Shown: positions 7,795 to 22,888 of the stretch, piece by piece
Layout: every line of letters begins with the position of its first letter
How positions within the stretch are numbered: position 1 is the first letter of the stretch
Notes under the pieces: generated by a model
What the model saw: only the letters and a program-made list of their open reading frames with translations
Databases searched by the model: none
What the model was told of the DNA's origin: nothing
Translations under genes and position numbers: made by a program
DNA from: Pseudomonadota bacterium
GTDB taxonomy: Bacteria; Pseudomonadota; Gammaproteobacteria; Xanthomonadales; Rhodanobacteraceae
Reading direction: 5' to 3'
Length of the DNA: 64,000 nt
NCBI GenBank assembly: GCA_018240505.1
Contig: JAFEFQ010000245.1
Coordinates: forward strand, 1-64,000

Positions 7795-8828
7795 TTCGCG
7801 AGCCGCCCCCACAGGCGCAGGCGCGACACGCCGCCGTCGGGGAAGATGTTGAAGCGGACATGCGTGATCGGGCCGAGCGCGGCGATCCCGTTCGCGAAAT
7901 GGTGCTCGGCGTCCATCGCCAGTTTCTGTTCTGGCAGCAGCACCGGCCAGAACATGCTCTGCGTGATCAGCGAAGACTCGGTGCCGCCCTCGACGCACGC
8001 GGCCTGGATCGAGCAGCGATCGGGATAGTTGCCCTTGAAGTGCGCGGTGTCGACGTCGATCTTCTCGATCACGCCCGGCGCGGCCAGCGCGATCAGGCAC
8101 CAGTCGTTGCCGGGTTCGCGTCGGCGCCGCGTTTCCCAGCCGTCGCCCATGTCGAGGCCGCGCCCGGGCAGCAGCAGGTTCGCCGCCGCGCCGAAATGCG
8201 CGTCGTTCCAGGCCACGGCGCGGCCGCCGTTCTCGAGTGCGATCAAGTCATGCTGTGTGGACGCGTCGCCCGCATCGAATGCGCCGACCACATGGCCGTA
8301 CACGCGCAGGCGCGCGACGCCGCCATCGGGATAGATGTGCACGCGCAGGTGCGAGAAGACGCCGTCGTTCGCGACCTCGACGAGATGATGACTGTTGCCT
8401 TTGAGCGCGGTCGCGGCGAGCACCGGCGTCCATGTGGCCTGCTTCAGCGCTTCCGCATCGTCGCTGGCCGAGAGCGTGCCCTCGATCGAGATCGCGGGCG
8501 CGTAGTTGCCGGTGAAGTGGCTCGTGTCGATGTCGAAGCCGGCGATGCGGCCGCGCCGGCCGAGCTTGACGATCGCCCAGTCGTGGCCGGCCGTACGCTT
8601 GCGCCGCGTCTCCCATCCGTCCATCCACTTGCCGTTGGCGTCGTACTTGCCCGGCACGAACACGGCCGGTTGCGGATCGAGCATGCGCGAGAGCGGGGCG
8701 AAGAATTCGTCCGAAGCGCAGATTGCGGCGGCGCCGATGCGCGGATTGGCGAGGTCGGTCGCACGTCGCGCCCAGTCGGGCAGTTCGATTCCCGCCGCCA
8801 CGATTGCGGCGCCTGAGGTTGGGGCCAT
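7791..8828 (-). CDS. alc: Allantoicase
   Basis: Hydrolyses allantoate to ureidoglycolate and urea. The 345-residue protein is an internal duplication of the allantoicase repeat: DGWETRRKR...[10 protein letters not shown]...[15 protein letters not shown] in the first half is echoed by [20 protein letters not shown]...[14 protein letters not shown] in the second. ATG 8828 gives the family's usual N-terminus. It leads the alc-allA pair and is divergent from uraD; the 94-bp gap between must hold promoters for both, although I see no clear operator. Confidence 0.94.
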
Positions 8829-8922
8829 GTCCGTTTTTCCTGTTCAGTTCGAAACGATTGTAGAAAAACCGCGGCGCCAACAAAATGCCCACTGGTTTGC
8901 GCAGGCGCCGAACGACACGACG

Positions 8923-9432
8923 ATGGACCTCGACACCCTCAACCGGCTATCCGCCGGCGAATTTGCCGAAACGCTGGGCGGCATCTACGAACACTCGCCG
9001 TGGATCGCTGCCGCGGCGCATGCGCGCGCGCCGTTCGCCGATGCCGACGCGCTCGTCGCGGCCTTGCGCGAGGCCGTGACGCAGGCGCCGCAGGCGCGCC
9101 AGCTCGCCCTGCTGCGCGCGCACCCTGAGCTGGCCGGCAAGGAAGCGGCGAGCGGCACGCTGACCGCGCATTCGGGCGAGGAACAGAAAGGCGCCGGGCT
9201 GACCAATCTGAGCGCCGCCGAGAAAGCCGAACTGGCCGATCTCAACCGCCGCTATCGCGACAAGTTCGGCTTCCCGTTCATCATCGCCGTGCGCCACCAC
9301 ACCCGATCGGGCATCCTCGCCGAGTTGCGCCGCCGCGCCGCGGGCGAGGATGCGGCGCGCGAATTCGCCACCTGCCTCGATCAAGTGCACGAGATCGCGA
9401 GGCTGCGCCTCGCGGCGCTGCTGGCAGGCTGA
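8923..9432 (+). CDS. uraD: OHCU decarboxylase
   Basis: Decarboxylates 2-oxo-4-hydroxy-4-carboxy-5-ureidoimidazoline to S-allantoin, following urate oxidase and HIU hydrolase. It has 169 residues. The family hallmark LLRAHPELAGKEA (catalytic-site histidine), then SGEEQKGAGLTNL, NRRYRDKFGFPFIIAVR and the C-terminal EIARLRL are all present. ATG 8923 is chosen because MDLDTLNRLSAGEF matches the family start; an upstream in-frame ATG would lie in the promoter region shared with alc. Upstream uricase or xanthine dehydrogenase genes are not in this window. Confidence 0.93.
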   Translation: MDLDTLNRLSAGEFAETLGGIYEHSPWIAAAAHARAPFADADALVAALREAVTQAPQARQLALLRAHPELAGKEAASGTLTAHSGEEQKGAGLTNLSAAEKAELADLNRRYRDKFGFPFIIAVRHHTRSGILAELRRRAAGEDAAREFATCLDQVHEIARLRLAALLAG

Positions 9433-9457
9433 TGCCGGTCGTCGGGTGAACAAGAGC

Positions 9458-11971
9458 ATGAATTTTCCGATCGCGGAGATCCTGCCCGAGTTGCTCGCGC
9501 AGCTCGACGCCGGCCCGCGCCTCGTGCTCGAGGCGCCGCCGGGCGCGGGCAAGACCACGCAGGTGCCGCTCGCGCTGCTCGATGCCGCGTGGCTGGCCGG
9601 GCGCAGGATCGTCATGCTGGAGCCGCGCCGCATCGCCGCGCGCGCCGCGGCCGAGTTCATGGCCGCGCAGCTCGGCGAGGTGGTCGGCGAGACGGTCGGC
9701 TACCGCATCCGCTTCGAGGCCAGGGTGTCGGCGCGCACGCGCATCGAAGTCGTCACCGAAGGCATCCTCACGCGCATGATCCAGGGCGATCCGGACCTCG
9801 CCGGGGTCGGCGCGATCCTGTTCGACGAATTCCACGAGCGCCACCTTGCCGGCGACGTCGGCGCGGCACTCGCGCTCGAAGTCCAGGCCTCGCTGAGGCC
9901 GGATCTGCGCCTCGTCATCATGTCGGCGACGCTCGACGGCGAGCGCATCGCGCGCTGGTTCGACGCGCCGCGCCTGAGCAGCGCCGGGCGCAGCTTTCCG
10001 GTGCGCGTCGAGTATCCGCCTGCGAAGCAGAACGAGGACTGGCCGTTCCACCTGCGCCGCGTCGTCGAGCAGGCACTGGCCGAGACCGACGGCGACATGC
10101 TCGTCTTCCTGCCCGGGCGGCGCGAGATCGAGCGTGCGCGGCAGACGCTCGCCGCGGTGGCCGCACCCAACGGCCATGAGATCGCGCTCGCGCCGCTGCA
10201 CGGCGAACTCTCGCTCGCCGAACAGCACGCCGCACTGGCGCCGGCGCACGCGGGCACGCGGCGCGTCGTGCTCGCGACCAACGTCGCCGAATCGAGCGTC
10301 ACCCTGCCGGGCATCCGCGCGGTGATCGACACCGGTCTCGCACGCGAGCCGTACTACGATCCGAACTCGGGTTTCACGCGACTGGAAACGGTCAACATCT
10401 CGCAGGCCTCGGCCGACCAGCGCGCGGGCCGCGCCGGCCGCGTCGCCGCGGGCGTCGCGTATCGATTGTGGCCGCAGAGCAAGCGTCTCGAGCCGTCACG
10501 CCGCGCCGAGATCGCGCAGGTGGAGCTGTCCGGCCTCGCGCTCGAACTCGCCGCCTGGGGCGCGAGCGACCTGCGCTGGCTCGACGCGCCGCCGCCCGGT
10601 GCGCTCGCCAGCGCGCGCGACCTGCTGCAGCTGCTCGGTGCGACCACCTCGCCCGGCGCCGACGCGAGCCTGACCGAGCTCGGCCGCGCGATGCTCGCGA
10701 GCGGCGCCACGCCGCGCCTTGCCGCCGCCGTGCTGCGCGCGCCGCCGGCGCAGCGCGCGCTGGCCTGCGATCTGCTCGCGCTGATCGAGGCGCGCAATCC
10801 ATTGCGCGGCGAGGCTGCGCGCAGCGACGATTTCCGCGCGCGTCACGCCGCGCTCGTCGCATTCCGCGGCGCCGGCGGCCGCGCCGTGCGCGAGCTCGGC
10901 GCCGACGCCGGATCGCTCGCGGCGGTCGCACAGGCGGCCGAGGCGTGGCGGCGGCGCTTCGGTGTGCGCGATGCCGCGCCTGCGCGCACAGCGGGTCTCA
11001 CCGGGATCGGCAACGTGCTCGCGCACGCGTTCCCCGACCGCATCGCGCGCCAGGATTCCGGCAACCCGCGCCGCTATGCGCTGAGCAACGGCCGCGGCGC
11101 GAGCCTGCATCCGAACTCGGCCCTCTACGGCGAGCCCTGGCTCGTCGTCGTCGATCTGCGCATGGACGAGCGCGACAGCCTCGTCCTTGCCGCGGCGCCG
11201 TTCGATCCGAACCTGCTCGAGCGCGATTTCGCCGATCGTCTGCACCGCGAACGCGTCGTGCGCTGGAACCGCGACACGCGCAGCGTCGAGGCATTCGAGG
11301 AATATCGTTTCGCCCAACTCGTGCTCGAACGCCGCAGCGTGCCGGCCAAGGCCGCGGATGCGCTGCCCGCGCTGCTCGCCGCGGTGCGCGAGGCGGGCCT
11401 GGCCTCGCTGCCGTGGAGCGACCACGCGCGTGCGCTGCGCGCGCGCGTCGCGTTCCTGCGCGAGGCGATGCCGGAACTCGAATTGCCCGACCTGTCCGAC
11501 GCGGCATTGCTCGCCGCGCTCGACGACTGGCTCGCGCCGGTGCTGGCCGGCAAGACCCGGCTCGATTCGTTGAGCACGCAAGCGCTCGGCGAAGCGCTCG
11601 CGGGCAGGCTCGACTATGCGCAACGCCGCGCGCTCGACGAGCACGCGCCCGGGGCGCTGCGCGTGCCGAGCGGCAACGAGCGCGCGCTGCACTACGAGGC
11701 CGGCAAGCCGCCGGTGCTCGCGGTCAAGCTGCAGGAACTGTTCGGCCTCGCCGACACGCCCCGCGTCGCCAGGGGACGCGTCGGCGTGACGCTGCATCTG
11801 CTGTCTCCGGCGCAGCGGCCAATCCAGGTCACCCAGGACCTGAAGGGATTCTGGGAGCGCACCTACCCCGAGGTGAAGAAAGAACTCAAGGGCCGCTATC
11901 CGAAACATCCCTGGCCGGACGATCCGTGGACGGCTACTCCCACTGCGCGCGCGAAGCCGCGCGCGCGCTGA
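9458..11971 (+). CDS. hrpB: ATP-dependent DExH helicase HrpB
   Basis: An 837-residue DEAH/RHA-type helicase of bacterial RNA metabolism whose precise substrate is unclear in the family. Walker A (PPGAGKTTQ, around residues 27-35), DEFH box (123-126), SAT motif (156-158), and the helicase C motif QRAGRAGRVAAGVAYRLW are all present. The C-terminal HrpB domain ends in the characteristic YPKHPWPDDPW sequence. I prefer ATG 9458; an in-frame GTG lies 12 nt upstream. It separates uraD from puuE but has no evident role in ureide metabolism. Confidence 0.95.
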   Translation: MNFPIAEILPELLAQLDAGPRLVLEAPPGAGKTTQVPLALLDAAWLAGRRIVMLEPRRIAARAAAEFMAAQLGEVVGETVGYRIRFEARVSARTRIEVVTEGILTRMIQGDPDLAGVGAILFDEFHERHLAGDVGAALALEVQASLRPDLRLVIMSATLDGERIARWFDAPRLSSAGRSFPVRVEYPPAKQNEDWPFHLRRVVEQALAETDGDMLVFLPGRREIERARQTLAAVAAPNGHEIALAPLHGELSLAEQHAALAPAHAGTRRVVLATNVAESSVTLPGIRAVIDTGLAREPYYDPNSGFTRLETVNISQASADQRAGRAGRVAAGVAYRLWPQSKRLEPSRRAEIAQVELSGLALELAAWGASDLRWLDAPPPGALASARDLLQLLGATTSPGADASLTELGRAMLASGATPRLAAAVLRAPPAQRALACDLLALIEARNPLRGEAARSDDFRARHAALVAFRGAGGRAVRELGADAGSLAAVAQAAEAWRRRFGVRDAAPARTAGLTGIGNVLAHAFPDRIARQDSGNPRRYALSNGRGASLHPNSALYGEPWLVVVDLRMDERDSLVLAAAPFDPNLLERDFADRLHRERVVRWNRDTRSVEAFEEYRFAQLVLERRSVPAKAADALPALLAAVREAGLASLPWSDHARALRARVAFLREAMPELELPDLSDAALLAALDDWLAPVLAGKTRLDSLSTQALGEALAGRLDYAQRRALDEHAPGALRVPSGNERALHYEAGKPPVLAVKLQELFGLADTPRVARGRVGVTLHLLSPAQRPIQVTQDLKGFWERTYPEVKKELKGRYPKHPWPDDPWTATPTARAKPRAR

Positions 11972-12021
11972 CCCGCTCGCGCGTCCTGCCACCGGAAACG
12001 GGAGCGACGCAAGCAGAATCC

Positions 12022-13008
12022 TCAGCGCGATAGCCGGCGTTCCGCCTCGGGGACGTACGGATGCGTCGCGAGCCAATGCCGCGCGATGTCGACGCGGCGG
12101 CAGATCCACACCTTGTCGTGCGCGATCGCGTAGTCGAGAAAACGCTCGAGCGCGGCGATGCGCGCGGGGCGGCCGACGATGCGCGCGTGCAGGCCGATCG
12201 AGAGCATCTTCGGCACGTCGAGACCGTCCGGATCGCCTTCGCGATACAACGCGTCGAACGCATCCTTGAGGTAGTCGAAGAATTGCGCGCCCGAGTTGAA
12301 GCCCTGCGCCGCGGCGAAGCGCATGTCGTTGCTGTCGAGCGTGTAGGGCACGATCAACTGCGGTATGCGCGCGTGCGCGCCGTCGCGCACGATGTCGACC
12401 TGCGTCCAGTACGGCAGATCGTCGGCATAGGAATCCGCGTCGTAGAGATAGCCGCCCTGTTCGGCGACGAGGCGTCGCGTGTTGGGCGAGTCGCGCCCGG
12501 TGTACCAGCCGAAAGGATGCTGGCCGACGAGTTCGCCGAGCAAGGCGGTCGCTTGCGCGATGTGAGCCCGCTCGGTCGCCTCGTCGATTGACTGGTAACT
12601 GATCCAGCGCAATCCATGACAAGCAATCTCGTGTCCAAGTTCCCGATAGGCGGCCAATGCTTCCGGATGACGCGCCAGCGCTTGCGCGACGGCAAAGATC
12701 GTCAGCGGCAATTTGCGCTGCTCGAACGCACGCAGCACGCGCCAGAGGCCCGCGCGCGAGCCGTATTCGTACAGCGACTCCATGCTCATGTGCCGCGCCG
12801 GGAATGCCTGCGCGCCGATGATTTCGGAGAGAAACGTTTCCGAGGCCGCATCGCCATGCAGCACGCAGTTCTCCGCACCCTCCTCGTGGTTGAGCACGAA
12901 CTGCAGCGCGATGCGCGCGCCGCCCGGCCAGCGCGGGTGCGGCGGCGTGCGCCCGTAGCCGATCAGGTCGCGCGGATAGGCAGGTTCGGAAATCGGCGGC
13001 ATCGGCAA
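12022..13008 (-). CDS. puuE: Allantoinase, polysaccharide-deacetylase type (PuuE)
   Basis: Hydrolyses allantoin to allantoate by a metal-dependent NodB-like fold unrelated to classical amidohydrolase allantoinases. The 328-residue protein starts with the family-specific YPRDLIGYGRTPPHPRWP and continues with LQFVLNHEEGAE, GHEIACHGLRWISYQ, GWYTGRDSPNTRRLV and YDADSYADDLPYW. With uraD, alc and allA it provides a complete path from OHCU to glyoxylate and urea. The gene is on its own, converging on hrpB. Confidence 0.94.
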   Translation of the reverse strand: MPMPPISEPAYPRDLIGYGRTPPHPRWPGGARIALQFVLNHEEGAENCVLHGDAASETFLSEIIGAQAFPARHMSMESLYEYGSRAGLWRVLRAFEQRKLPLTIFAVAQALARHPEALAAYRELGHEIACHGLRWISYQSIDEATERAHIAQATALLGELVGQHPFGWYTGRDSPNTRRLVAEQGGYLYDADSYADDLPYWTQVDIVRDGAHARIPQLIVPYTLDSNDMRFAAAQGFNSGAQFFDYLKDAFDALYREGDPDGLDVPKMLSIGLHARIVGRPARIAALERFLDYAIAHDKVWICRRVDIARHWLATHPYVPEAERRLSR

Positions 13009-13069: not shown

Positions 13070-15211
13070 TCATGGCTGCGTCGCGGCGGCGAGCACCGGC
13101 GCGGCCGTGCGCTGCAGCGCGTGCAACCGCGCCTTGAGCAAGGCGACGTCGTGCGCCACATTCGACAATGCGGCGACCGCGGCTTGCGCCGTCGCCGCCT
13201 GCGTTTGCGCGGCGCGCGCCTGCGCGTTCGCCTCGGCCAATTCGCGACGCAGCGCGGCGATCTGTGCGTCGTGGACACGGCGCAGTTCGGCGATCTGACC
13301 ATCCGTGGCCGCAAGCGCCTGTTCGAGCTTGACGTTCAGGCCCTTGATCGCGGCGAGGGCGACACCCTGCGCGTCGGTGCTGCCGATCGACTTGTCGTCC
13401 GCGCCGCCGAGACCGAACGCGGCTTTGAAATCCTGCGCCATCGGGCCGATGTGCTTCGATCCGCGATCCTTCTTGAACTCCCAGCTCGATACCGGCAGCG
13501 CGACGAGCCGCGCCAGCACGTCGCTGCCGTCGGTCGGCACGATCGCCGTCTTGAGATTGCGGTCGGACGAGCATTGCCAGCCCGCAGCGCCCGTGGCGGC
13601 CAGGTAGCAGTCGTGCACGCCGCCGGCGAAGAACCAGGCCCTGCCGACGGCACCGGTGGAGACGTAAAAATCACCGTCAGAGTTGGTATGGCCGCCAATC
13701 CGGTTTGGATCGCCGTTCCACATGAAGGAAAAATCGTTCTGTGCGTGCGCATCGACGCCCATCGCGGTCGAATAGTTGCCGTCGGCGGTCGTGCCGCCGC
13801 TGCCCATTGCGATGGATCTGTTGCCACTTGCCGTTGCGATGCCTAGCGCTACGGAATAATCGCCACTCGCGAAACTGCCACCTGACGCTACGGAAGCGAG
13901 GCCGCTCGCCGTTGCGCCGAAGCCTAGCGCCAGGGACACTGGCCCACTGGCCGTTGTGTTCGCTCCCAACGCCGTAGAGTAACTGCCACTTGCCTTCGTG
14001 AAGTTACCCAGTGCCGTAGAACTGGCGCCACTCGCCACTGTGTTGTAACCCATCGCAAATGAAGTTGCTCCTACGTTGGCGTCGTCCCACTGTGTGCCAT
14101 CGATACGACCTGCCCGGAAAGCCGCCTTGGCCGGATACCACATCATGCGCACCCCGGTTCCGGTGGCCGGAATCGTGCCAGTGTCGGCCGTGCCGCCCGC
14201 CAGCAACCCGCCATCACTGAACGCCTTCAACAGATTGTTCGCGACCAGCGCATTGCCGCTGTCATAACGCAGCGTCTGGTTCGCCGTCCCCGCCGGGCCG
14301 GCGGCGAAGTAGCCGAAGTAGTCGACGATCACGTTGGGACTGCCTCCGCTCGCAAACACCTCGAACGCATAGTTGCCCGACCCGTTCCTGGCCGCACTCA
14401 AGGTCCCCGCATTGGCCCAGCCCAGAGTGCCGCCCGCCGGCCAGTTGATGAAACTGGTCAGCGCCGTATTGCCGACCGGGCGGATTCCCAGGTATCCCGC
14501 GGCTGCCGTGCCCGGCACGACGATCGTGACATTCGCCGCGATGCCCGCCTCGCCGCCCGGCGGCAGCACGCACCCGGTCGCGCCGCCGTAGTTGCTGCCG
14601 TCCAGGCTCGTGTCGAATTGACGCGGTGCGACGATGCCACCGCCCACGTTGCGTGTGTCGATGAATCGGCACGGCGTGATCGGGGTGAAGATCAGGCTGT
14701 CGCTCGCGCTGCCGAAACTGTTCGCCTCAGCGACGGGACGGACGCCATGCAGCGCGTCGGCGCGGGCCATGGCATGGGCCTCGTCCAGGGTGGACGCGCT
14801 GGCCGCGATCGCGCGCAGGGTCGCGCTCGGCGTGGCATACAGCACGCTGCTCAGGCCGACAGGCCAGTCCTCGCGCGCGCGCTTGCCGGCGGCGTCTGCC
14901 GCCACGTTCTGCACGATGCTGTGCGCCAGCTCGATGCGCGCACGCATCTCCTCGCTTTGCGCCATGCTCAGAACGGGCACGCCTGCGGTGCGAGGGCGCT
15001 GACCGGACGGCAGCAGGGAGAAATCGGGACGCGTCGCAGGGTTGTCGCCGGCCGCGGCGCCGGGGTCGACCGCACCGCCATGCGCGCCGGTCGCGGCGAG
15101 CAACAGCGTGCAAAGGATGACGCGCGGCGACAAGGACCACGGTCGCGGGGTCGACCGCGCGACGACGAGGCGTGGCAAGGACATCGGGAGTTGTGCGCGC
15201 TGCCGGGTCAT
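13070..15211 (-). CDS. Exported head-repeat / peptidase S74 (intramolecular chaperone) protein
   Basis: A 713-residue putative surface protein. A long basic N-region is followed by a hydrophobic signal segment (about residues 30-45). A module beginning TPCRFIDTRNVGG spans roughly 178-305, then YadA/Hep-Hag-like head repeats of the SxALGxxTxASG type (381-490). A peptidase S74 domain starts at about 547, with the SDRNLK self-cleavage dyad (Ser549, Lys554) and HIGPMAQDFKAAFG. A coiled coil fills 625-705. No YadA membrane anchor is present. ATG 15211 has GAGGAA upstream and lies 55 nt below a motif shared with the next two exported-protein genes. Trimerisation followed by release of the chaperone is the family behaviour; the ligand is unknown. 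Confidence 0.8.
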   Translation of the reverse strand: MTRQRAQLPMSLPRLVVARSTPRPWSLSPRVILCTLLLAATGAHGGAVDPGAAAGDNPATRPDFSLLPSGQRPRTAGVPVLSMAQSEEMRARIELAHSIVQNVAADAAGKRAREDWPVGLSSVLYATPSATLRAIAASASTLDEAHAMARADALHGVRPVAEANSFGSASDSLIFTPITPCRFIDTRNVGGGIVAPRQFDTSLDGSNYGGATGCVLPPGGEAGIAANVTIVVPGTAAAGYLGIRPVGNTALTSFINWPAGGTLGWANAGTLSAARNGSGNYAFEVFASGGSPNVIVDYFGYFAAGPAGTANQTLRYDSGNALVANNLLKAFSDGGLLAGGTADTGTIPATGTGVRMMWYPAKAAFRAGRIDGTQWDDANVGATSFAMGYNTVASGASSTALGNFTKASGSYSTALGANTTASGPVSLALGFGATASGLASVASGGSFASGDYSVALGIATASGNRSIAMGSGGTTADGNYSTAMGVDAHAQNDFSFMWNGDPNRIGGHTNSDGDFYVSTGAVGRAWFFAGGVHDCYLAATGAAGWQCSSDRNLKTAIVPTDGSDVLARLVALPVSSWEFKKDRGSKHIGPMAQDFKAAFGLGGADDKSIGSTDAQGVALAAIKGLNVKLEQALAATDGQIAELRRVHDAQIAALRRELAEANAQARAAQTQAATAQAAVAALSNVAHDVALLKARLHALQRTAAPVLAAATQP

Positions 15212-15266
15212 GGGAGTTCCTCGGTCGGGTATGAGATCGACCCTGCGTTTGCAGGTTTCTCCAGTG

Positions 15267-15294
15267 CATACGGAAAAACGCGGAAAAGACCGAC
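15267..15294 (-). promoter_or_regulatory. Shared motif, site 1 (putative ECF promoter)
   Basis: On the minus strand it reads GTCGGT-N15-CCGTATG. Of 28 positions, 20 are identical to sites 2 and 3 with the same spacing. It ends 55 nt before the start of the S74 protein gene. The spacing of the two conserved blocks fits a sigma-factor -35/-10 pair. Confidence 0.6.
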
Positions 15295-15466
15295 GTGCAT
15301 GCGCCACGGGCGCCCGACACCGGGCACCGGGCAAGACGAGATCACTTCGTGACGATTTTCCTCGTGGCTCGCCGATGCCGGTCTGGTGCGTGTGCATGTG
15401 CCTGCTCATGCGGGAGTGCACGGTTCGATCGGATGCGGAATGAGTTTTCGACGGAAGCGCAGGCGC

Positions 15467-17389
15467 TTACTGGCGACGGCGCGCTTCCACACGCGCACCC
15501 GCCATCGCCGCCAGCGCCGAAGCCAGCAGCGCTGCCGCCCACGCGCCGAGCATGGGCGCCGGCACGGACGCAACGGGTGGCGGCGGTGGTGTCAGCGCGT
15601 TCACCACCTGATTCAAAATGGCGGAGGTCGAGGTGAGATTGTTCGGATCGCCGCTGTACACCGCGGTGATCGGATGCGTGCCGACGCCAAGCGCCGAGGT
15701 GGTCAGCGTCGCGACGCCGCCGCTCATGGCCGCCGACGCGCCGAGATTGCTCGCGCCGTCCTTGAACTGCACGCTGCCGGTCGGCGCAGCGCCCGTCACC
15801 GTTGCGGTGAAGGTGACCGATTGGCCGGAGATCGAAGGATTGAGCGAGGACACGACGGTGGTCGTGGTGGTGGCCGGCGTCGTCGCGGCCGGCGTCGCGG
15901 TCAGGCACCTGGAAAATTCCGACGTGTTTTTCGCCGCGTCCGTCGCGGTGGCGGTGATGACCGCCTGGCCTGCAGGCAACGCGAGGCTCAATGGACCGAA
16001 GCTCGCGCTGCCGCTGGCGTCGGTGACGATAGCGGTCCCGCCAATGTAGCTCTGGCCCTGACCGTAACCGGAGGCGTCGCATGCGGCGCTGGCGAAGAAC
16101 TCCATGACGAACCCGCTTCCGGCGATGCCGTTGAAGCTGCCCGAAATGGCGACGTTGCCGCCGTTCAGCACGGCGGAAGTGATCACCGGGTAGTTCTGGC
16201 CGTCGTTGCCGACCTTGTCGGCCGCCCAGCTGTCGAGATCGCCCGCGTCGTTCGCCAACACGAACGGGCTGTAGTCCAGACTGATGCCGAGACGTCCGTT
16301 CGCGTAAATGGCGTTGCGGCTTATCCAGTTCCGGGTATTGACGTTGCTGCTTCCCTGCGTGGAGCCGTTGTAGATAACGATGCCATAGCCGGCGTTGTTG
16401 GCGATGACGTTCCCCGCGGCATCGCCGATGGTCGAATTCCCGCCGTGGATTTCGATGCCGCCGAAATTTCCGTTGCCCAACGGGGTGACGCCGTCGCGCT
16501 GGGTGCCAATCAGGTTGCCCTGCACGACGTCGTGGTCGAGCAACTGGATCGCGCCTCCGGGATTTCCCGAGATCAGATTGTCGACCACGGCCGCGTTGGA
16601 AATCGCGTCGAGGCCCCGCCCGTTCGACAGCGCGAGCTTGCCGGTGATGTCCGTGCCGATGTAGTTGCCCTGGATGCGATAGTTGGTACCGGGGCCCGGC
16701 GCGAGGTACGGAAGCTGCACGCCCAGGCCATAGAAGCCGCTGCCGCCGCCGGGCACGATGAGATTGCGATCCTCGACGTTGGACCCGCCGATCGTCACAT
16801 CGCTGGCGGGCGTCAGGTACGAAAAGACTTGAATGCCGAAGGCGCCGCCAAGCCCGGGCAATGCCGTCGTGCCGCCCGCATCGGTACCGATGAAATTGCC
16901 GGCGATGACGACCTGGCTGGTATAGACGCCGATGGCGCGATAGCCATGAATCGCCAGTCCGCGGATCGTGGTAGGCGCGCCGTAGATGTTCAGGCCGTCC
17001 ACGCCCGGCATGCCGGCGATTTCGATCTTGAGCACCGCGTTGATGCCCGCGTTGAGCGGATTGCTGTTCTGACTCGATCCCGGTTGCGAATAGCCGTTGA
17101 TGTATACCGACTTGTTGATGTTCGGCAGATTGGCAGCCAGCGTGATCACATGCACGCCCGCGCCGGCGATGTTGAATTCGATCGTATCGTTGCTGCCGTA
17201 GGCCCCCGCGGCAACGACGTCGCCGTTGGGCGGAGTGCCGGCGTTGATGGCGGTGATCGCTTCGCGCAGCGTCACCTGACCATCGGCCGCCACGGTGTCG
17301 GCAGTGGAATCGACCGTAATCGTCGCCGCCCATCCCGGCGCACAGAAAAGCACGGCGACAAACGCGACGCAGAGCGAGCGGAACGTCAT
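15467..17389 (-). CDS. Secreted parallel beta-helix protein with CSLREA-like start and Ig-like domain
   Basis: A 640-residue exported protein. The signal peptide (residues 1-21) ends in PGWA, followed by ITVDSTADTVAADGQVTLREAI, the CSLREA-type N-terminal motif. A right-handed beta helix with repeated NLI/NxI turns (IAGNFIGTD, IQGNYIGTD, VQGNLIGTQ, VIANNAGYGI) occupies roughly 70-430. A bacterial Ig-like domain (VTFTATVTGAAPTGSVQF) sits near 540-600. The end PAPMLGAWAAALLASALAAMAGARVEARRRQ-type tail (proline, one helix, arginine cluster) resembles IPTL-CTERM sorting signals. ATG 17389 lies 81 nt below shared motif site 2. Adhesion or a surface role is inference. Confidence 0.8.
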   Translation of the reverse strand: MTFRSLCVAFVAVLFCAPGWAATITVDSTADTVAADGQVTLREAITAINAGTPPNGDVVAAGAYGSNDTIEFNIAGAGVHVITLAANLPNINKSVYINGYSQPGSSQNSNPLNAGINAVLKIEIAGMPGVDGLNIYGAPTTIRGLAIHGYRAIGVYTSQVVIAGNFIGTDAGGTTALPGLGGAFGIQVFSYLTPASDVTIGGSNVEDRNLIVPGGGSGFYGLGVQLPYLAPGPGTNYRIQGNYIGTDITGKLALSNGRGLDAISNAAVVDNLISGNPGGAIQLLDHDVVQGNLIGTQRDGVTPLGNGNFGGIEIHGGNSTIGDAAGNVIANNAGYGIVIYNGSTQGSSNVNTRNWISRNAIYANGRLGISLDYSPFVLANDAGDLDSWAADKVGNDGQNYPVITSAVLNGGNVAISGSFNGIAGSGFVMEFFASAACDASGYGQGQSYIGGTAIVTDASGSASFGPLSLALPAGQAVITATATDAAKNTSEFSRCLTATPAATTPATTTTTVVSSLNPSISGQSVTFTATVTGAAPTGSVQFKDGASNLGASAAMSGGVATLTTSALGVGTHPITAVYSGDPNNLTSTSAILNQVVNALTPPPPPVASVPAPMLGAWAAALLASALAAMAGARVEARRRQ

Positions 17390-17470
17390 GGTTTTCTCCC
17401 GGAAAATCGTCGTTGAGAACCGCCCCGGACGGCGCAAGGCTCGACCGCCGCTTTCTGGTTCTCCTTGGCT

Positions 17471-17498
17471 CATACGGCAATCGGCGGGAAAAACCGAC
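17471..17498 (-). promoter_or_regulatory. Shared motif, site 2 (putative ECF promoter)
   Basis: Minus-strand GTCGGT-N15-CCGTATG, ending 81 nt before the beta-helix protein gene. It differs from site 3 at only three of 28 positions, and the similarity continues on both sides (CGAT before, AGCC after). Confidence 0.65.
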
Positions 17499-17542
17499 AT
17501 CGGCCGGCCGTGTACGTTTATCGCGCCTATTGCGCCCACCGC

Positions 17543-17869
17543 TTAGCCCTTGCGCGCACGCATCTCCCGAACAAGTCCGCATCCACCGAAAGCGGCCAGA
17601 AACAAGCCGACGCCCGTGAACTCCCATGCGCTGAAGTCCATGCCGCGATTGCCGCGAAACACCTCGCCGGTCGCGATTCCGCGAATGCCGAGCCCCATCG
17701 CGACCAGGCCCATGGCAAGACAAAAGACGAGGGCCGAGATTCCCGAGCGGCGGGCTGCGCTGGCGCTCTCGGGAGTCCGGAGGTTCGGCGGTCCGGAGTC
17801 GGGGTCGGCCGGCATCGGGTCGTACATCGGAACCACCTCCAATGGAACCGCGCCGGGTTCCGGCGTCAT
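17543..17869 (-). CDS. Small two-helix membrane protein, unknown function
   Basis: A 108-residue protein, not recognised. A proline/acid-rich N-terminal third is followed by two hydrophobic helices (around SALVFCLAMGLVAMGLGI and FTGVGLFLAAFGGCGL) and a short basic tail ending MRARKG. I use ATG 17869; an in-frame TTG at 17881 would add four residues. It lies 27 nt downstream of the 428-residue exported protein gene on the same strand, so it is probably co-transcribed from shared motif site 3. Confidence 0.6.
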   Translation of the reverse strand: MTPEPGAVPLEVVPMYDPMPADPDSGPPNLRTPESASAARRSGISALVFCLAMGLVAMGLGIRGIATGEVFRGNRGMDFSAWEFTGVGLFLAAFGGCGLVREMRARKG

Positions 17870-17896
17870 GTCGTCGAGCAACTGAATCGAAAATAC

Positions 17897-19183
17897 TCAG
17901 TAGCCGTAGTTGCGACCGAGATGGAACGCGACCGCGTCGTCAAATCCTTTTTGCGCGCTGGCGGAGGAAAGCGCGTTGCGGATCTGCAGGGACCCAGGCC
18001 CCATCTGCCTGTTGCCCACCGCGCCGAGCGCCCGATCGCCGAATAGTCCCGTGGCGATATTGAAACCGAGCCGGTAGAAACTGGGGTTGTTGCCGGCAAG
18101 CCACCGGGTTCCCAAGCCCGGCTTGGATTCGCGGGCATCCATGACGCTGTGGTCGGCATTGACGATCGCGGCGCCTCTGGCGGCCAGGTCGGCATTGGCA
18201 TTGCGATCCAGCGAGTACTGGACGGCGAGTCTGAAACCGTACTGTTCGCCCGCACTCAATGCGTCTTGAATGGCCTGCTTGCCCGGCCCGTTGGCGGTCT
18301 GGCCCTCGGCCACGGCCATGCCATAGTCGAATCCGTTGATGCGCGCATCGTCGAGAAGCGAATTGCGCAGCTCATTCGCCAAGGGATCCTCGCTGGCGAG
18401 GTCCGAGCCGCGGGCGATGCGATCCTTCTTCGACGCCTCGTCAACCACGGAGCGCGATCGATTCAGGCCGCGCGAATCGCCTGGCGCGTCGAACGCGGGC
18501 CTTGAAGCTTGTGCACTTTGCGCCTGGCATTGGCGCTCGAGGCTGGCTGCGGCGGGCGAATTGCGTGCGCGCGCCGACCTGGCCGCTTCGCAAATCGACG
18601 TGGCTGGCGCCGGCGTTGTGGAAGGCGTGGCGCGGCCCAGGGCCACCGTCGGTTTGGCGGCAGGGGCAAGACCCGGGGAGCCATGCGCGAGGCACCTGGC
18701 GGTTCGATTGCTGTGCCAATCCGCCTTGGTTTGTGGCGGGCAAGCCAGGGCGCCGGGCGGGCACGGCCGACTGTTCGCATCGTAGGTGCTGCCCACGATC
18801 AGCCCCTGGCGACCGACCCGGCCTTCATAGATGCCGATGGTGTTGTTGTTCCAGTACACGGTGAGCTTGAGGGAATCACCCTGGATCGTTCCGACGGCGG
18901 GGCCATGACCCGCATAGTCATCGACTACGCTCCCGATATCCAATATGGGACCCCCATGTTCCCGGGTGTAACGGTAGGAGGCGGTGCCTTGAAGGTCAGT
19001 CCCCGTTTGTTCGAGTGTGAAGGAAGTCGGGCTCGGTTGATTGGTCTGCTCGATCGCCCATTCGCCGCTCATGTCCCATTGCGTACAGGCCGCCTGTGCG
19101 ACGGACTGTGAAGGAACGACGATGCCGCCACCGAACACGATGACGCCTGCTACCGCAATGGAAATCTTGCCGATACCGGGCAT
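17897..19183 (-). CDS. Exported protein of unknown function
   Basis: A 428-residue protein, not recognised. It has a signal peptide (hydrophobic about 7-22, ending SVAQAA), then a small beta-rich domain, CTQWDMSGEWAIEQTN through TLEQTGTDLQGTASY, that resembles lipocalin-like or DUF-type ligand-binding folds. A low-complexity Ala/Pro/Arg linker follows (about 165-250), then a helical C-terminal region (260-428) ending FHLGRNYGY. ATG 19183 has AGGTGG just upstream. The start is 75 nt below shared motif site 3 and the gene is divergent from the sigma factor, suggesting it is a regulon member or a locus partner. Confidence 0.65.
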   Translation of the reverse strand: MPGIGKISIAVAGVIVFGGGIVVPSQSVAQAACTQWDMSGEWAIEQTNQPSPTSFTLEQTGTDLQGTASYRYTREHGGPILDIGSVVDDYAGHGPAVGTIQGDSLKLTVYWNNNTIGIYEGRVGRQGLIVGSTYDANSRPCPPGALACPPQTKADWHSNRTARCLAHGSPGLAPAAKPTVALGRATPSTTPAPATSICEAARSARARNSPAAASLERQCQAQSAQASRPAFDAPGDSRGLNRSRSVVDEASKKDRIARGSDLASEDPLANELRNSLLDDARINGFDYGMAVAEGQTANGPGKQAIQDALSAGEQYGFRLAVQYSLDRNANADLAARGAAIVNADHSVMDARESKPGLGTRWLAGNNPSFYRLGFNIATGLFGDRALGAVGNRQMGPGSLQIRNALSSASAQKGFDDAVAFHLGRNYGY

Positions 19184-19258
19184 GGGGCCACCTCTTGGGT
19201 TTTGACAGGATTTGCCGAATGGATACGTTCGGTATTCCGCTTCCGGGTCTTGTCGGCT

Positions 19259-19286
19259 CATACGGCAATCGACGAAAAAAACCGAC
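19259..19286 (-). promoter_or_regulatory. Shared motif, site 3 (putative ECF promoter)
   Basis: Minus-strand GTCGGT-N15-CCGTATG in the 220-bp divergent gap between the exported-protein gene and the ECF sigma gene, 75 nt before the former. The position next to the regulator gene makes this the most likely direct target. Confidence 0.65.
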
Positions 19287-19403
19287 ATCGTGCCTGCCGC
19301 CGTGTCGCGGCGCGGGTGGCGAAGACGGCGCGAAGCGGCGCGGACGCCCGCGCGGGCGGCGCGTGTATACTCGTTCCAGCGGTTCCGGGGGAGCGGGGTT
19401 CGC

Positions 19404-19973
19404 ATGGTCGGGGGCGAAGTCACAGGGCTGCTGGAAGCGGTCAACAATGGCGATGCGCAGGCGCTGCACGCCTTGTTTGCGCGCGTGTACCGCGAGCTGA
19501 AGCAGCTGGCGCGCAAGCGTCTGGCCGAATCGGCCGGGCATTCGCTGAACACCACGGCGCTGGTGCACGAGGCCTATCTGAAACTCGCCCACTCCGAAGG
19601 GCGCCCGCTGCACGGACGCACGCATTTTTTTGCCCTCGCGGCCAAGGCCATGCGCCAGATCGTCATCGATCGCGCGCGTGCGCACGTGGCAGAAAAACGC
19701 GGCGGCAGCGAGGCGCGGCTGGTCGAACTCGACGAGGCACTCGGCGTTCCCGGCGGCGGACTCGAAGCGGACGAGTTGCTGCGCCTGAACCATGCGCTCG
19801 ACTCGCTCGAAGCGGCGGAGCCGCGGCTGGCGGAACTGGTCGAGTTGCGTTTCTTCGCCGGCCTCGGCATCGGCGAGATCGCCGTGTTGCGCGATGTGAG
19901 CGAACGCACGCTCAATCGCGATTGGCGCCGCGCCAAGGCACAACTGTACGCGACGCTGCACCCAGAGCCATGA
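19404..19973 (+). CDS. ECF-type RNA polymerase sigma factor, kinase-partnered type
   Basis: A 189-residue sigma factor of the TIGR02999/ECF43-like kind. The region 2 block LNTTALVHEAYLKLA (residues 49-63), HFFALAAKAMRQIVIDRARAH and the region 4 helix-turn-helix ELRFFAGLGIGEIAVLRDVSERTLNRDWRRAKAQL-type segment are visible. Region 2.2 lacks the acidic DAED motif usual in ECF sigmas and has Asn-Thr-Thr (Thr50, Thr51) there instead. In the studied EcfP/PknT and EcfK/PknS pairs, a partner kinase activates the sigma factor by phosphorylating this region. No anti-sigma gene is adjacent. Its stop overlaps the kinase start (ATGA). ATG 19404 is chosen; longer starts run into the motif region. Confidence 0.88.
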   Translation: MVGGEVTGLLEAVNNGDAQALHALFARVYRELKQLARKRLAESAGHSLNTTALVHEAYLKLAHSEGRPLHGRTHFFALAAKAMRQIVIDRARAHVAEKRGGSEARLVELDEALGVPGGGLEADELLRLNHALDSLEAAEPRLAELVELRFFAGLGIGEIAVLRDVSERTLNRDWRRAKAQLYATLHPEP

Positions 19974-22888
19974 CCGTGGACCCGCGACGTGTCGGCGAAC
20001 TGTTCGATGCGGCGATCGACATCGCACCGGAGGAACGCGCGGTCTGGCTGGATCGAGCCTGCGACGGCGATGCCGTGCTTCGCGCCGAAGTCGAATGCTT
20101 GCTGCGCGCCGATGCCAGAGCGTCGGATTTTCTGGAAGCGCCGCCGGCCTTGATCGCCGCGGCCAGCGCAACCGCAGCACCCCACGGCGCGGAAGGCATG
20201 CCGCATCGGTTCGGTGTCTATCGCGTACTGCGTTCGATCGGCAGCGGCGGCATGGGCGAGGTGTGGTTGGCCGAGCGCAGCGACGGTGAATTCGAGCAGC
20301 GCGTCGCGGTCAAGCAACTCGCCTGGCCGACACCGGGCCTGCTGCAGCGCTTCCGCCGCGAGCGCCAGATTCTCGCGCGACTCGAGCACGCCAGCATCGC
20401 GCGCCTGATCGACGGCGGCATCGGCGCCGACGGCGCGCCCTATCTGGTGATGGAGTACGTCGACGGCGTGCCGATTACCGACTTCGCACGCGCGCGGGCA
20501 CTCGACGTGCGTGCGCGCCTGCACCTGTTCCTGCGCGTCTGCGAGGCGGTGCAGTACGCGCACCAGAATCTCGTCGTGCATCGCGACCTGAAGCCGGCGA
20601 ACATCTTCGTCACCGCGGACGGCACGCCGAAACTGCTCGATTTCGGCATCGCCAAGGTGCTGGCGACGACCGACGCAGACGCGCCGACGCAGACCGCCGC
20701 ACGCCTGCTGACGCCGGACTACGCCGCGCCCGAACAGTTCACCGGCGCGGCGATCACCACGGCGACCGACGTGTATGCGCTTGGCGTCGTGTTGTACGAA
20801 CTGCTCGCGGACAGGCGTCCGCCGCGCGCCGATTTCGGGATGCCTCGTGACGGAACGCAGCACGCGGGCGAACCGCCGCCGCCAAGCGCCGCACTCGATT
20901 CAACCGCCATCGACGCGAACCCCCGCCGGCGCGCGCTGCGCGGCGATCTGGATCGCATCGCGCTGACCGCGATCGCCGCCGAACCACCGCGTCGCTATGC
21001 ATCGGCGGAGGCGCTCGCCACCGACATCCGACGCCATCTCGAGGGCCGGCCGATCGCGGCGCGCCGCGACAGCGTCGGCTATCGATTCCGCAAATTCGCC
21101 CGGCGCAATCGCTATGTGCTCGGCGCTGCAGCGATCGCGTTCGCCGCGTGTCTTGCCGCGGCCGTCGTCAGCCTGCGCCAGGCCAGCATCGCCCGCGACG
21201 AAGCGCAGCGCGCAGCCGCCGTGCGGCAATTCATGGTCACGGTGTTCCAGCAGGCCAATCCCGAAGAAAACAAGGGTCGTCCGCTCGATGCGCATCAACT
21301 GCTGGAAAAAGGCGAGCAACAAATGCGGCGGCGTTTTGCCGGCCAACCGGCCCTGCAAACCGATGTTTCCGCGCTGTTGGCGCAGCTCTACGTCGATCTC
21401 GGCGACTACGCCCGCGCCGACACCTTGCTCAAGCAGGCGCTCGTCGCGAGCGAAGCCGCGCGCATCCCCGATGAGGTTCGCGGCCGCGTGCTCGTGAGTC
21501 TGGCCACGCTCGAGGGCGAGGTTCAGTCCCGATTCGCCGATTCACTCGCGCATGCGCGTCAAGGCGTCGCGCTGCTGCAGCCTACGCGCGAGCGCAACGC
21601 CGAACACATCGCGCAGGCGCACTGGGTCATGGCCGCGGACCTGATCGCACAGAACGACAGCGACGGGGCGATCGCGCTGTTGCATGAAGCCATTCCACGG
21701 GACCAGGCCGTACTCGGCGAACGCAGCGAACCGGTTGCTGAAGCGTGGGTGAAATTGGGGCGCGCGTCGGCAGAGCTGGAGCGCTGGATGGACGCCGATG
21801 CCGCATTCGACCAGGCACTCCGCATCATGCGGGGCATTTACGGCGAAGACAGCCTGCATGCGGCGCATGTGCTCAACGAAATCGGCAGCCTCCACTATCA
21901 GGCTGGCGACTTCGCTCGCGCCGAGGAGGCGCACCGGAAAGCGCTGCAGATGAAAATCGGCATTCTGGATCCCGACAACCCCGACACGCTGAGCCTGCGC
22001 CACAACCTGCTCGGCGACATCGAAGGCGCCGGGCGCTATGCCGAAGCCTTGCCGCAACGACTGCAGCTGCTGGAGCAGGCCAAGGCATCGCCGGCCGTCG
22101 CGGCCGCTCCGCTGCAAATCGTCGCCTACCTCGACGGCGCGGCCCAGGACTATCAGGCGTTGGGCCGTTTCGCTGAAGCCAGGGCATTGCTCGAACAGGC
22201 GCTGGCCCTGATCGACAAAGCGCAGGGGCAGCGAAGTCAGCACAGCGTGACCACGCGCAGCCATCTCGGTACCGTCTTGCTGCTGCAGGGGCATTTTGCC
22301 GAGGCCGAGGCCGCGTTTCGCGAGGCGCTCGCCACGAAGCCGACGCCGTTCCGCACATGCGGATTGCGCGAGCGGCTCGGCGTGACCTTGCGTCTCGCAC
22401 ACCAGCCTGCGCAGGCAATGAAGCAATTCCAGTCGCTGAACGACGAAGGATGTCTGGCGTCGTTGAAGGAAAGCGACAACTGGCGACCGCGCGCTCTGGC
22501 CGCGCTGGCCGAAGCACAGCTGGATTCCGGCGACACCACGACGGCCAATGTCACCGCGGATTCCGCGATGGCGTATGCGCGCAAAGCGTTCCCGCCGCAT
22601 CATTTCCAACTGGGCATCGCGTTGTTCGCGCAAGCGCGCGCACGCCTGGCTGCAGGCAAACCCGGCGAGGCGGAGCCGTTGCTGCGCGAAGCACTGGCGG
22701 TACGCAACCCGCCGCATCCTGCCGACGATCCGCGTGTGCTCGAAGTGAAGGTCGCCCTGATCAATGCGCTGACTGCGCAAAGCAGGAAAGACGAAGCCAT
22801 CCGGCTGCGCGATGAAGTCGGACCGTTGTTGCAAGGGTCGGCATCGCCCTATGCAGCCGACCTGCGCGCGCAGCTGACGGCACACTGA
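19970..22888 (+). CDS. Membrane Ser/Thr protein kinase with TPR sensor domain
   Basis: A 972-residue Hanks-type kinase. A ~80-residue N-terminal helical region is followed by the kinase domain: glycine loop GSGGMGEV (91-98), Lys115, HRDLKPAN (204-211), DFG (224-226) and a PDYAAPEQF activation-loop end. A single membrane helix (YVLGAAAIAFAACLAAAVVSL) follows at about residue 380, then a ~570-residue TPR array that would lie in the periplasm. The start overlaps the sigma gene stop by 4 nt, so the pair is co-translated. By analogy with known kinase/ECF pairs it should phosphorylate the sigma factor in response to an envelope signal bound by the TPRs; the signal is unknown. Confidence 0.92.
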   Translation: MTVDPRRVGELFDAAIDIAPEERAVWLDRACDGDAVLRAEVECLLRADARASDFLEAPPALIAAASATAAPHGAEGMPHRFGVYRVLRSIGSGGMGEVWLAERSDGEFEQRVAVKQLAWPTPGLLQRFRRERQILARLEHASIARLIDGGIGADGAPYLVMEYVDGVPITDFARARALDVRARLHLFLRVCEAVQYAHQNLVVHRDLKPANIFVTADGTPKLLDFGIAKVLATTDADAPTQTAARLLTPDYAAPEQFTGAAITTATDVYALGVVLYELLADRRPPRADFGMPRDGTQHAGEPPPPSAALDSTAIDANPRRRALRGDLDRIALTAIAAEPPRRYASAEALATDIRRHLEGRPIAARRDSVGYRFRKFARRNRYVLGAAAIAFAACLAAAVVSLRQASIARDEAQRAAAVRQFMVTVFQQANPEENKGRPLDAHQLLEKGEQQMRRRFAGQPALQTDVSALLAQLYVDLGDYARADTLLKQALVASEAARIPDEVRGRVLVSLATLEGEVQSRFADSLAHARQGVALLQPTRERNAEHIAQAHWVMAADLIAQNDSDGAIALLHEAIPRDQAVLGERSEPVAEAWVKLGRASAELERWMDADAAFDQALRIMRGIYGEDSLHAAHVLNEIGSLHYQAGDFARAEEAHRKALQMKIGILDPDNPDTLSLRHNLLGDIEGAGRYAEALPQRLQLLEQAKASPAVAAAPLQIVAYLDGAAQDYQALGRFAEARALLEQALALIDKAQGQRSQHSVTTRSHLGTVLLLQGHFAEAEAAFREALATKPTPFRTCGLRERLGVTLRLAHQPAQAMKQFQSLNDEGCLASLKESDNWRPRALAALAEAQLDSGDTTTANVTADSAMAYARKAFPPHHFQLGIALFAQARARLAAGKPGEAEPLLREALAVRNPPHPADDPRVLEVKVALINALTAQSRKDEAIRLRDEVGPLLQGSASPYAADLRAQLTAH

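Follow-up and report, generated by a model that had tools for sequence, protein, structure and literature searches.

To our knowledge, kinase-activated ECF sigma factors have very few known targets. Ordinary ECF sigma factors carry an acidic DAED motif in region 2.2, canonical ECF promoters have a -35 element with AAC, and some ECF promoters, for instance those of ECF41, follow the pattern TGTC..CGTC. The -10 element of ECF promoters is usually CGT (PMC8103513). ECF43 sigma factors are activated through phosphorylation by a neighbouring kinase, as described for two systems (PMC8999054, PMC13147305). In EcfP of Vibrio parahaemolyticus, region 2.2 reads STTA, and its second threonine is phosphorylated by the kinase PknT (PMC8999054).

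The locus described here was found in a stretch of 64,000 nucleotides (the window, meaning that whole stretch) and combines a sigma factor and kinase pair with three units encoding exported proteins. Its predicted promoters share with those of the ECF41 type a -35 element that lacks AAC and starts with TGTC, a -10 element starting with CGT and a spacer of about 16 nt, whereas ECF41 sigma factors have a C-terminal extension and another genomic partner, the partner of the window sigma factor being a kinase. Like EcfP/PknT, the pair consists of an ECF sigma factor adjoining a Hanks-type kinase, with an uncharged region 2.2 motif containing a second threonine, NTTA in place of STTA; however, the EcfP regulon concerns polymyxin resistance, while the regulon predicted here comprises three adjoining surface-protein units with a defined motif (PMC8999054). 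EcfK/PknS of Xanthomonas citri, from the same bacterial order, likewise has a transmembrane kinase gene adjoining the sigma gene and a Thr51 in region 2.2, but the target of EcfK is a type VI secretion system, and the corresponding region 2.2 residues are QATE; the available part of that report shows no promoter consensus for EcfK (PMC13147305). Nor did we find an ECF43 promoter consensus in the literature searched, the main ECF classification being outside the reach of that search, and the novelty of the motif as a first definable ECF43-type promoter is not proven.

A sigma factor and kinase pair of the ECF43 kind

The sigma factor (19404-19973, plus strand, 189 aa) matches PF07638 (1.3e-46) and TIGR02999 with 185.5 bits, against a cut-off of 126.15 bits. 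Its region 2.2 reads LNTTALVHEAYLK, in which N49-T50-T51-A52 replaces the acidic motif, and its region 4.2 helix is VSERTLNRDW. The kinase gene (19970-22888, plus strand) overlaps the end of the sigma gene, its start lying in the stop codon (ATGA). Its product matches PF00069 (1.3e-38) and TPR families and has intact GSGGMG, HRDLKPAN, DFG and APE motifs, a single hydrophobic, predicted transmembrane segment at approximately residues 382-402 and a C-terminal TPR domain. The families named in an earlier reading of this DNA made from the sequence only, an ECF sigma factor paired with a TPR-containing Ser/Thr kinase, were therefore borne out. By the features that can be tested in the sequences, namely an uncharged, threonine-containing region 2.2 motif of the STTA/QTTA type, an adjoining Hanks-type kinase gene and a TIGR02999/PF07638 protein with regions 2 and 4 only, the pair belongs to the ECF43 kind, an assignment made with profile libraries that contain no ECF43 model itself.

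A shared element upstream of three exported-protein units

The sequence-only reading had pointed to the motif GTCGGT-N15-CCGTATG before three genes, and the positions, strand, distances of 55-81 nt to the start codons and 20 identical positions out of 28 were all exact on recheck. Site 1 (15267-15294, minus strand) ends 55 nt before the ATG at 15211 of a fibre-like protein gene, site 2 (17471-17498, minus strand) ends 81 nt before the ATG at 17389 of a beta-helix protein gene, and site 3 (19259-19286, minus strand), located between its unit and the divergently oriented sigma gene, ends 75 nt before the ATG at 19183 of a gene for an exported protein that is followed by one for a small membrane protein. 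The whole-genome search proposed in that reading was run on the complete assembly (3,510,567 bases in 281 contigs, 86% complete): the motif is not scattered but occurs in exactly three copies, all in the window and all before exported-protein units. Allowing up to three mismatches to the 20-position consensus retrieved no copies from the assembly beyond the same three, and the reversed-pattern control gave 0 matches. Since the assembly is 86% complete, distant targets may be absent from it.

All three sites contain a -10 box starting with CGT (CGTATG in 3/3), and the AAC of the canonical ECF -35 is absent, the sites reading TGTCGG or CGTCGG. The copies hold as first described; the conserved block is better given as (A)TGTCGGT-N16-CGTATG, with site 1 lacking the first T and beginning CGTCGGT. 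A block ACCnGnAAnCG also recurs 3' of each motif at a similar distance (approximately 15245-15266, 17448-17470 and 19236-19258) and may be an element of the initially transcribed region.

The three sites could be left over from a recent duplication of an upstream segment, or be a local repeat, without present function, as sites 2 and 3 agree at 25/28 positions and share some bases immediately 3' of the motif. However, identity among the three upstream regions is 21-25/28 inside the motif and falls to near chance (13-21/60) in the 60 nt upstream, so that the sites do not represent a duplicated segment. The element is, moreover, kept in other genera with different spacer sequences and before unrelated downstream genes (see below), and this conservation largely refutes an origin by duplication, which we consider very unlikely.

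It could also be argued that the conservation reflects coding sequence, because sites 2 and 3 lie within open frames containing ATG codons and the proteins could start further upstream; a peptide MSVF(P/F)(A/V)DCRMS is encoded in frame with the gene in both cases (17390-17499 and 19184-19287). This explanation is hardly credible, as the equivalent frame at site 1 is not that of the gene, and in the relatives the distance from the element to the good signal peptides, which start 44-81 nt downstream, varies. A promoter remains the reading that we prefer for the three sites.

Proteins encoded by the three units

The first unit encodes an exported fibre-like protein (13070-15211, minus strand) with YadA_head repeats (PF05658, 1.7e-17), a coiled-coil-like end and an S74 intramolecular chaperone domain (PF13884, 4.9e-10) containing SDRNLK, whose Ser and Lys we take to be spaced as in the S74 dyad. 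Adjoining the locus at 8506-13008, genes of purine (ureide) catabolism were recognised by eye, with an OHCU decarboxylase-like and an allantoinase/PuuE-like gene and an HrpB-like helicase gene between them.

The product of the second unit is an exported right-handed beta-helix protein (15467-17389, minus strand; PF13229 and PF16640, Big_3_5) with a hydrophobic, CSLREA-like N-terminus, for which TIGR04214 scored just under the cut-off. It ends in VPAP, a hydrophobic stretch and RRR, which had been taken for a sorting-like tail. A working sorting system is unsupported: the tail matched no NCBIfam sorting-domain (CTERM) model up to E 0.5, and the exosortase family PF09721 had no match in the 86% complete assembly.

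The third unit starts with an exported protein of 428 aa (17897-19183, minus strand) with a hydrophobic N-terminus and probably forms an operon with the gene for a membrane protein of 108 aa (17543-17869, minus strand), from which it is separated by a 27-nt gap. The label "lipocalin-like" previously given to the larger protein found no backing, as it has no Pfam or NCBIfam match and its single-sequence AlphaFold model reached a pLDDT of only 37.5. With one good partial relative (residues 28-219, 45% identity, in genome G070) and one marginal match, orthology of this target cannot serve as evidence. The 108-aa protein showed no family match and no relative in the related loci examined.

Conservation of the element beside orthologous sigma genes

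The nearest relatives of the sigma factor come from one Lysobacterales family that includes Dokdonella, to which matches at E <= 1e-50 were confined among the 398 genomes sampled from the order. In the neighbourhoods of these genes, taken up to 20 kb, the kinase adjoins the sigma factor wherever the contig reaches that far. The comparison with relatives, likewise proposed in the sequence-only reading, supported it: TGTCG-N17/18-CGTATG recurs beside orthologous sigma genes and before exported-protein genes in G024, G083, G055, G128, G074 and G026, as exemplified by loci L052 (GATGTCGCATTCCGGTGGCGACCCTCGTATGGG), L178, L179, L180, L181 and L182. Across the twelve genomes with such a sigma factor, leaving out the window's own, 8/37 exact matches are located no more than 10 kb from the sigma gene, where 0.2 would be expected (Poisson P ~6e-11). 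Element matches are only scattered in seven genomes of a single genus that lack a sigma match at E <= 1e-50, and across 20 genomes TGTCG-N18-CGTATG is not commoner genome-wide than its reversed control; only the position of the element adjoining the sigma gene, not its genome-wide frequency, is informative. At sigma loci with identities of about 50% or less no motif was found, save two chance-like matches. L051 is among the loci with the nearest sigma factors (65% identity) yet has only a degenerate site, GATGGC-N19-CGTACG.

Exact matches to GTCGGT-N15-CCGTATG elsewhere in 197 genomes of the family were set aside, being mostly a recurrent sequence GTCGGTTCsACyGGyGC..CCGTATG, presumably coding, together with chance sites, all unrelated to the sigma factor.

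Matrices were trained reciprocally. One built from the relatives' sites only ranked the window sites 1, 2 and 3 in the 64-kb window, with site 3 in the top two and site 1 third by a narrow margin (14.33 vs 14.24). Conversely, a matrix from the three window sites only placed the promoter of the sigma locus first in L052, L178, L179, L180, L182 and L170. The site expected in L181 tied for second, and the variant sites of L171, L172 and L174 were not ranked first. Best scores were higher in loci of the sigma clade than in 56 control loci with more distant sigma factors (Mann-Whitney P 5e-4), some of which also score high by chance.

In L179 (10826-10931) and L182 (5968-6082), two motif copies lie back to back with approximately 50-60 nt between them, giving a compact bidirectional promoter that is flanked by exported-protein genes. 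L181 has a second site (10820; GATGTCGGTTCGGCCAGGCGTTTGCGTAGGC) after the first target gene, from which a further unit may be transcribed.

Predicted targets in the relatives

The target genes vary between genomes, and predicted export is what they have in common. A strongly hydrophobic N-terminal stretch was detected in 20/21 predicted targets compared to 18% of the 228 ORFs in the neighbourhood (Fisher P 7e-13), the one remaining target being just below the threshold, and most targets have a good start codon 44-81 nt 3' of the -10 element. They include trimeric autotransporters of the YadA type with an ESPR in L180, where the anchor is present, and in L178, where the gene is cut by the contig end, as well as S74 proteins in L051 and L053. 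Further targets are Kelch/Big_3_5, DUF5122 propeller/Big_3_5, PKD, matrixin-like (metalloprotease-like) and DUF3558 proteins. Several targets, in the window, L170, L171 and L174, end in a hydrophobic segment and then basic residues, with no match to a sorting-domain model.

Variants of the element follow the sigma subclade

On the sigma tree, motif-bearing loci were clustered, requiring 3 changes compared to 10.2 on shuffling (0/500 shuffles as low), with moderate support only for the deep nodes of the motif clade. The -10 element differs between subclades: it reads CGTATGAG or CGTATGGG after an 18-nt gap in the window and L052, CGTATGT with a gap of mostly 17 nt in L178-L182, CGTTTC in L170-L172 and CGAT in L174 and L175, the last two variants having been recognised post hoc. 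All sigma factors with a strong motif share the region 4.2 helix RTLNRDW. In L053, the helix is RTIHRDW, and TGTCA replaces TGTCG. The locus represented by L177 and L232, of which L232 was examined as a test of the prediction, has the helix RTLQRTW and no motif; L051 is an exception, with RTLNRDW despite its merely degenerate site.

In L232 (3185-4795), an exported-protein gene nevertheless lies divergent from the same-clade sigma gene, perhaps reflecting a shifted promoter specificity. In L174 (6452 and 6551) and L175 (10335 and 10434), the motif precedes both the sigma gene and the divergent gene, which suggests autoregulation of the sigma factor in this subclade; no such arrangement was seen in the window.

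A shared upstream element does not by itself identify its reader, and the motif could instead be bound by some unlinked regulator that controls the same surface genes, with the adjoining sigma factor acting on other targets. The genome offers candidates, as it encodes four other TIGR02999 sigma factors in addition to weaker sigma-70 matches. However, the loci of these four paralogues contain no strong motif site in our motif and matrix scans, whereas the element follows the orthologous sigma factor across genera and adjoins it. The spacing of its -35 and -10 boxes and its CGT at -10 match an ECF promoter, and its variants track the sigma subclade and the region 4.2 helix. We therefore regard an unlinked regulator as unlikely and favour recognition by the adjoining sigma factor.

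Discussion

Taken together, the comparisons with relatives strongly suggest recognition by the sigma factor of a promoter that, within the assembly, is confined to the three units. The locus probably encodes an ECF43-type sigma factor that is activated by its kinase and dedicated to a strictly local surface-protein regulon. Of the original interpretation, control of the three units by the sigma factor and kinase through the motif is supported by the uniqueness of the motif, its co-occurrence with the sigma gene, the reciprocal matrices and the exported targets in relatives; the lipocalin-like label and a working sorting system are not supported.

In the mechanism that we propose, the catalytic domain of the transmembrane kinase would lie in the cytoplasm and its TPR domain is predicted to lie outside, where the kinase would sense an envelope or external cue. 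It would then phosphorylate the sigma factor, the most likely residue being Thr51 of NTTA, which stands in for the acidic core-binding motif, and the activated sigma factor would bring RNA polymerase to promoters composed of TGTCGGT (-35), a 16-nt spacer and CGTATG (-10). Transcription of three units would follow: the exported protein with the small membrane protein, the beta-helix protein and the S74/YadA-head fibre. Because the targets are of the fibre type, a role of the surface proteins in adhesion or cell-cell interaction is plausible.

With somewhat less assurance, we lean towards viewing these loci as a branch, so far undescribed, of ECF sigma factors under kinase control, with a promoter code of its own, TGTCG-N17/18-CGTAT. 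Such a branch would constitute a portable switch for adjoining surface-protein genes across several genera, in which targets turn over while promoter, sigma factor and kinase stay together and the promoter co-evolves with the region 4.2 helix.

On the proposed reading, the locus would be a small, self-contained switch for altering the cell surface. The predicted promoter, with variants matched to variants of the sigma factor, makes the DNA read by such sigma factors directly testable, and the same holds for the gating by phosphorylation and for whether this pathway changes the cell surface in the lineage.
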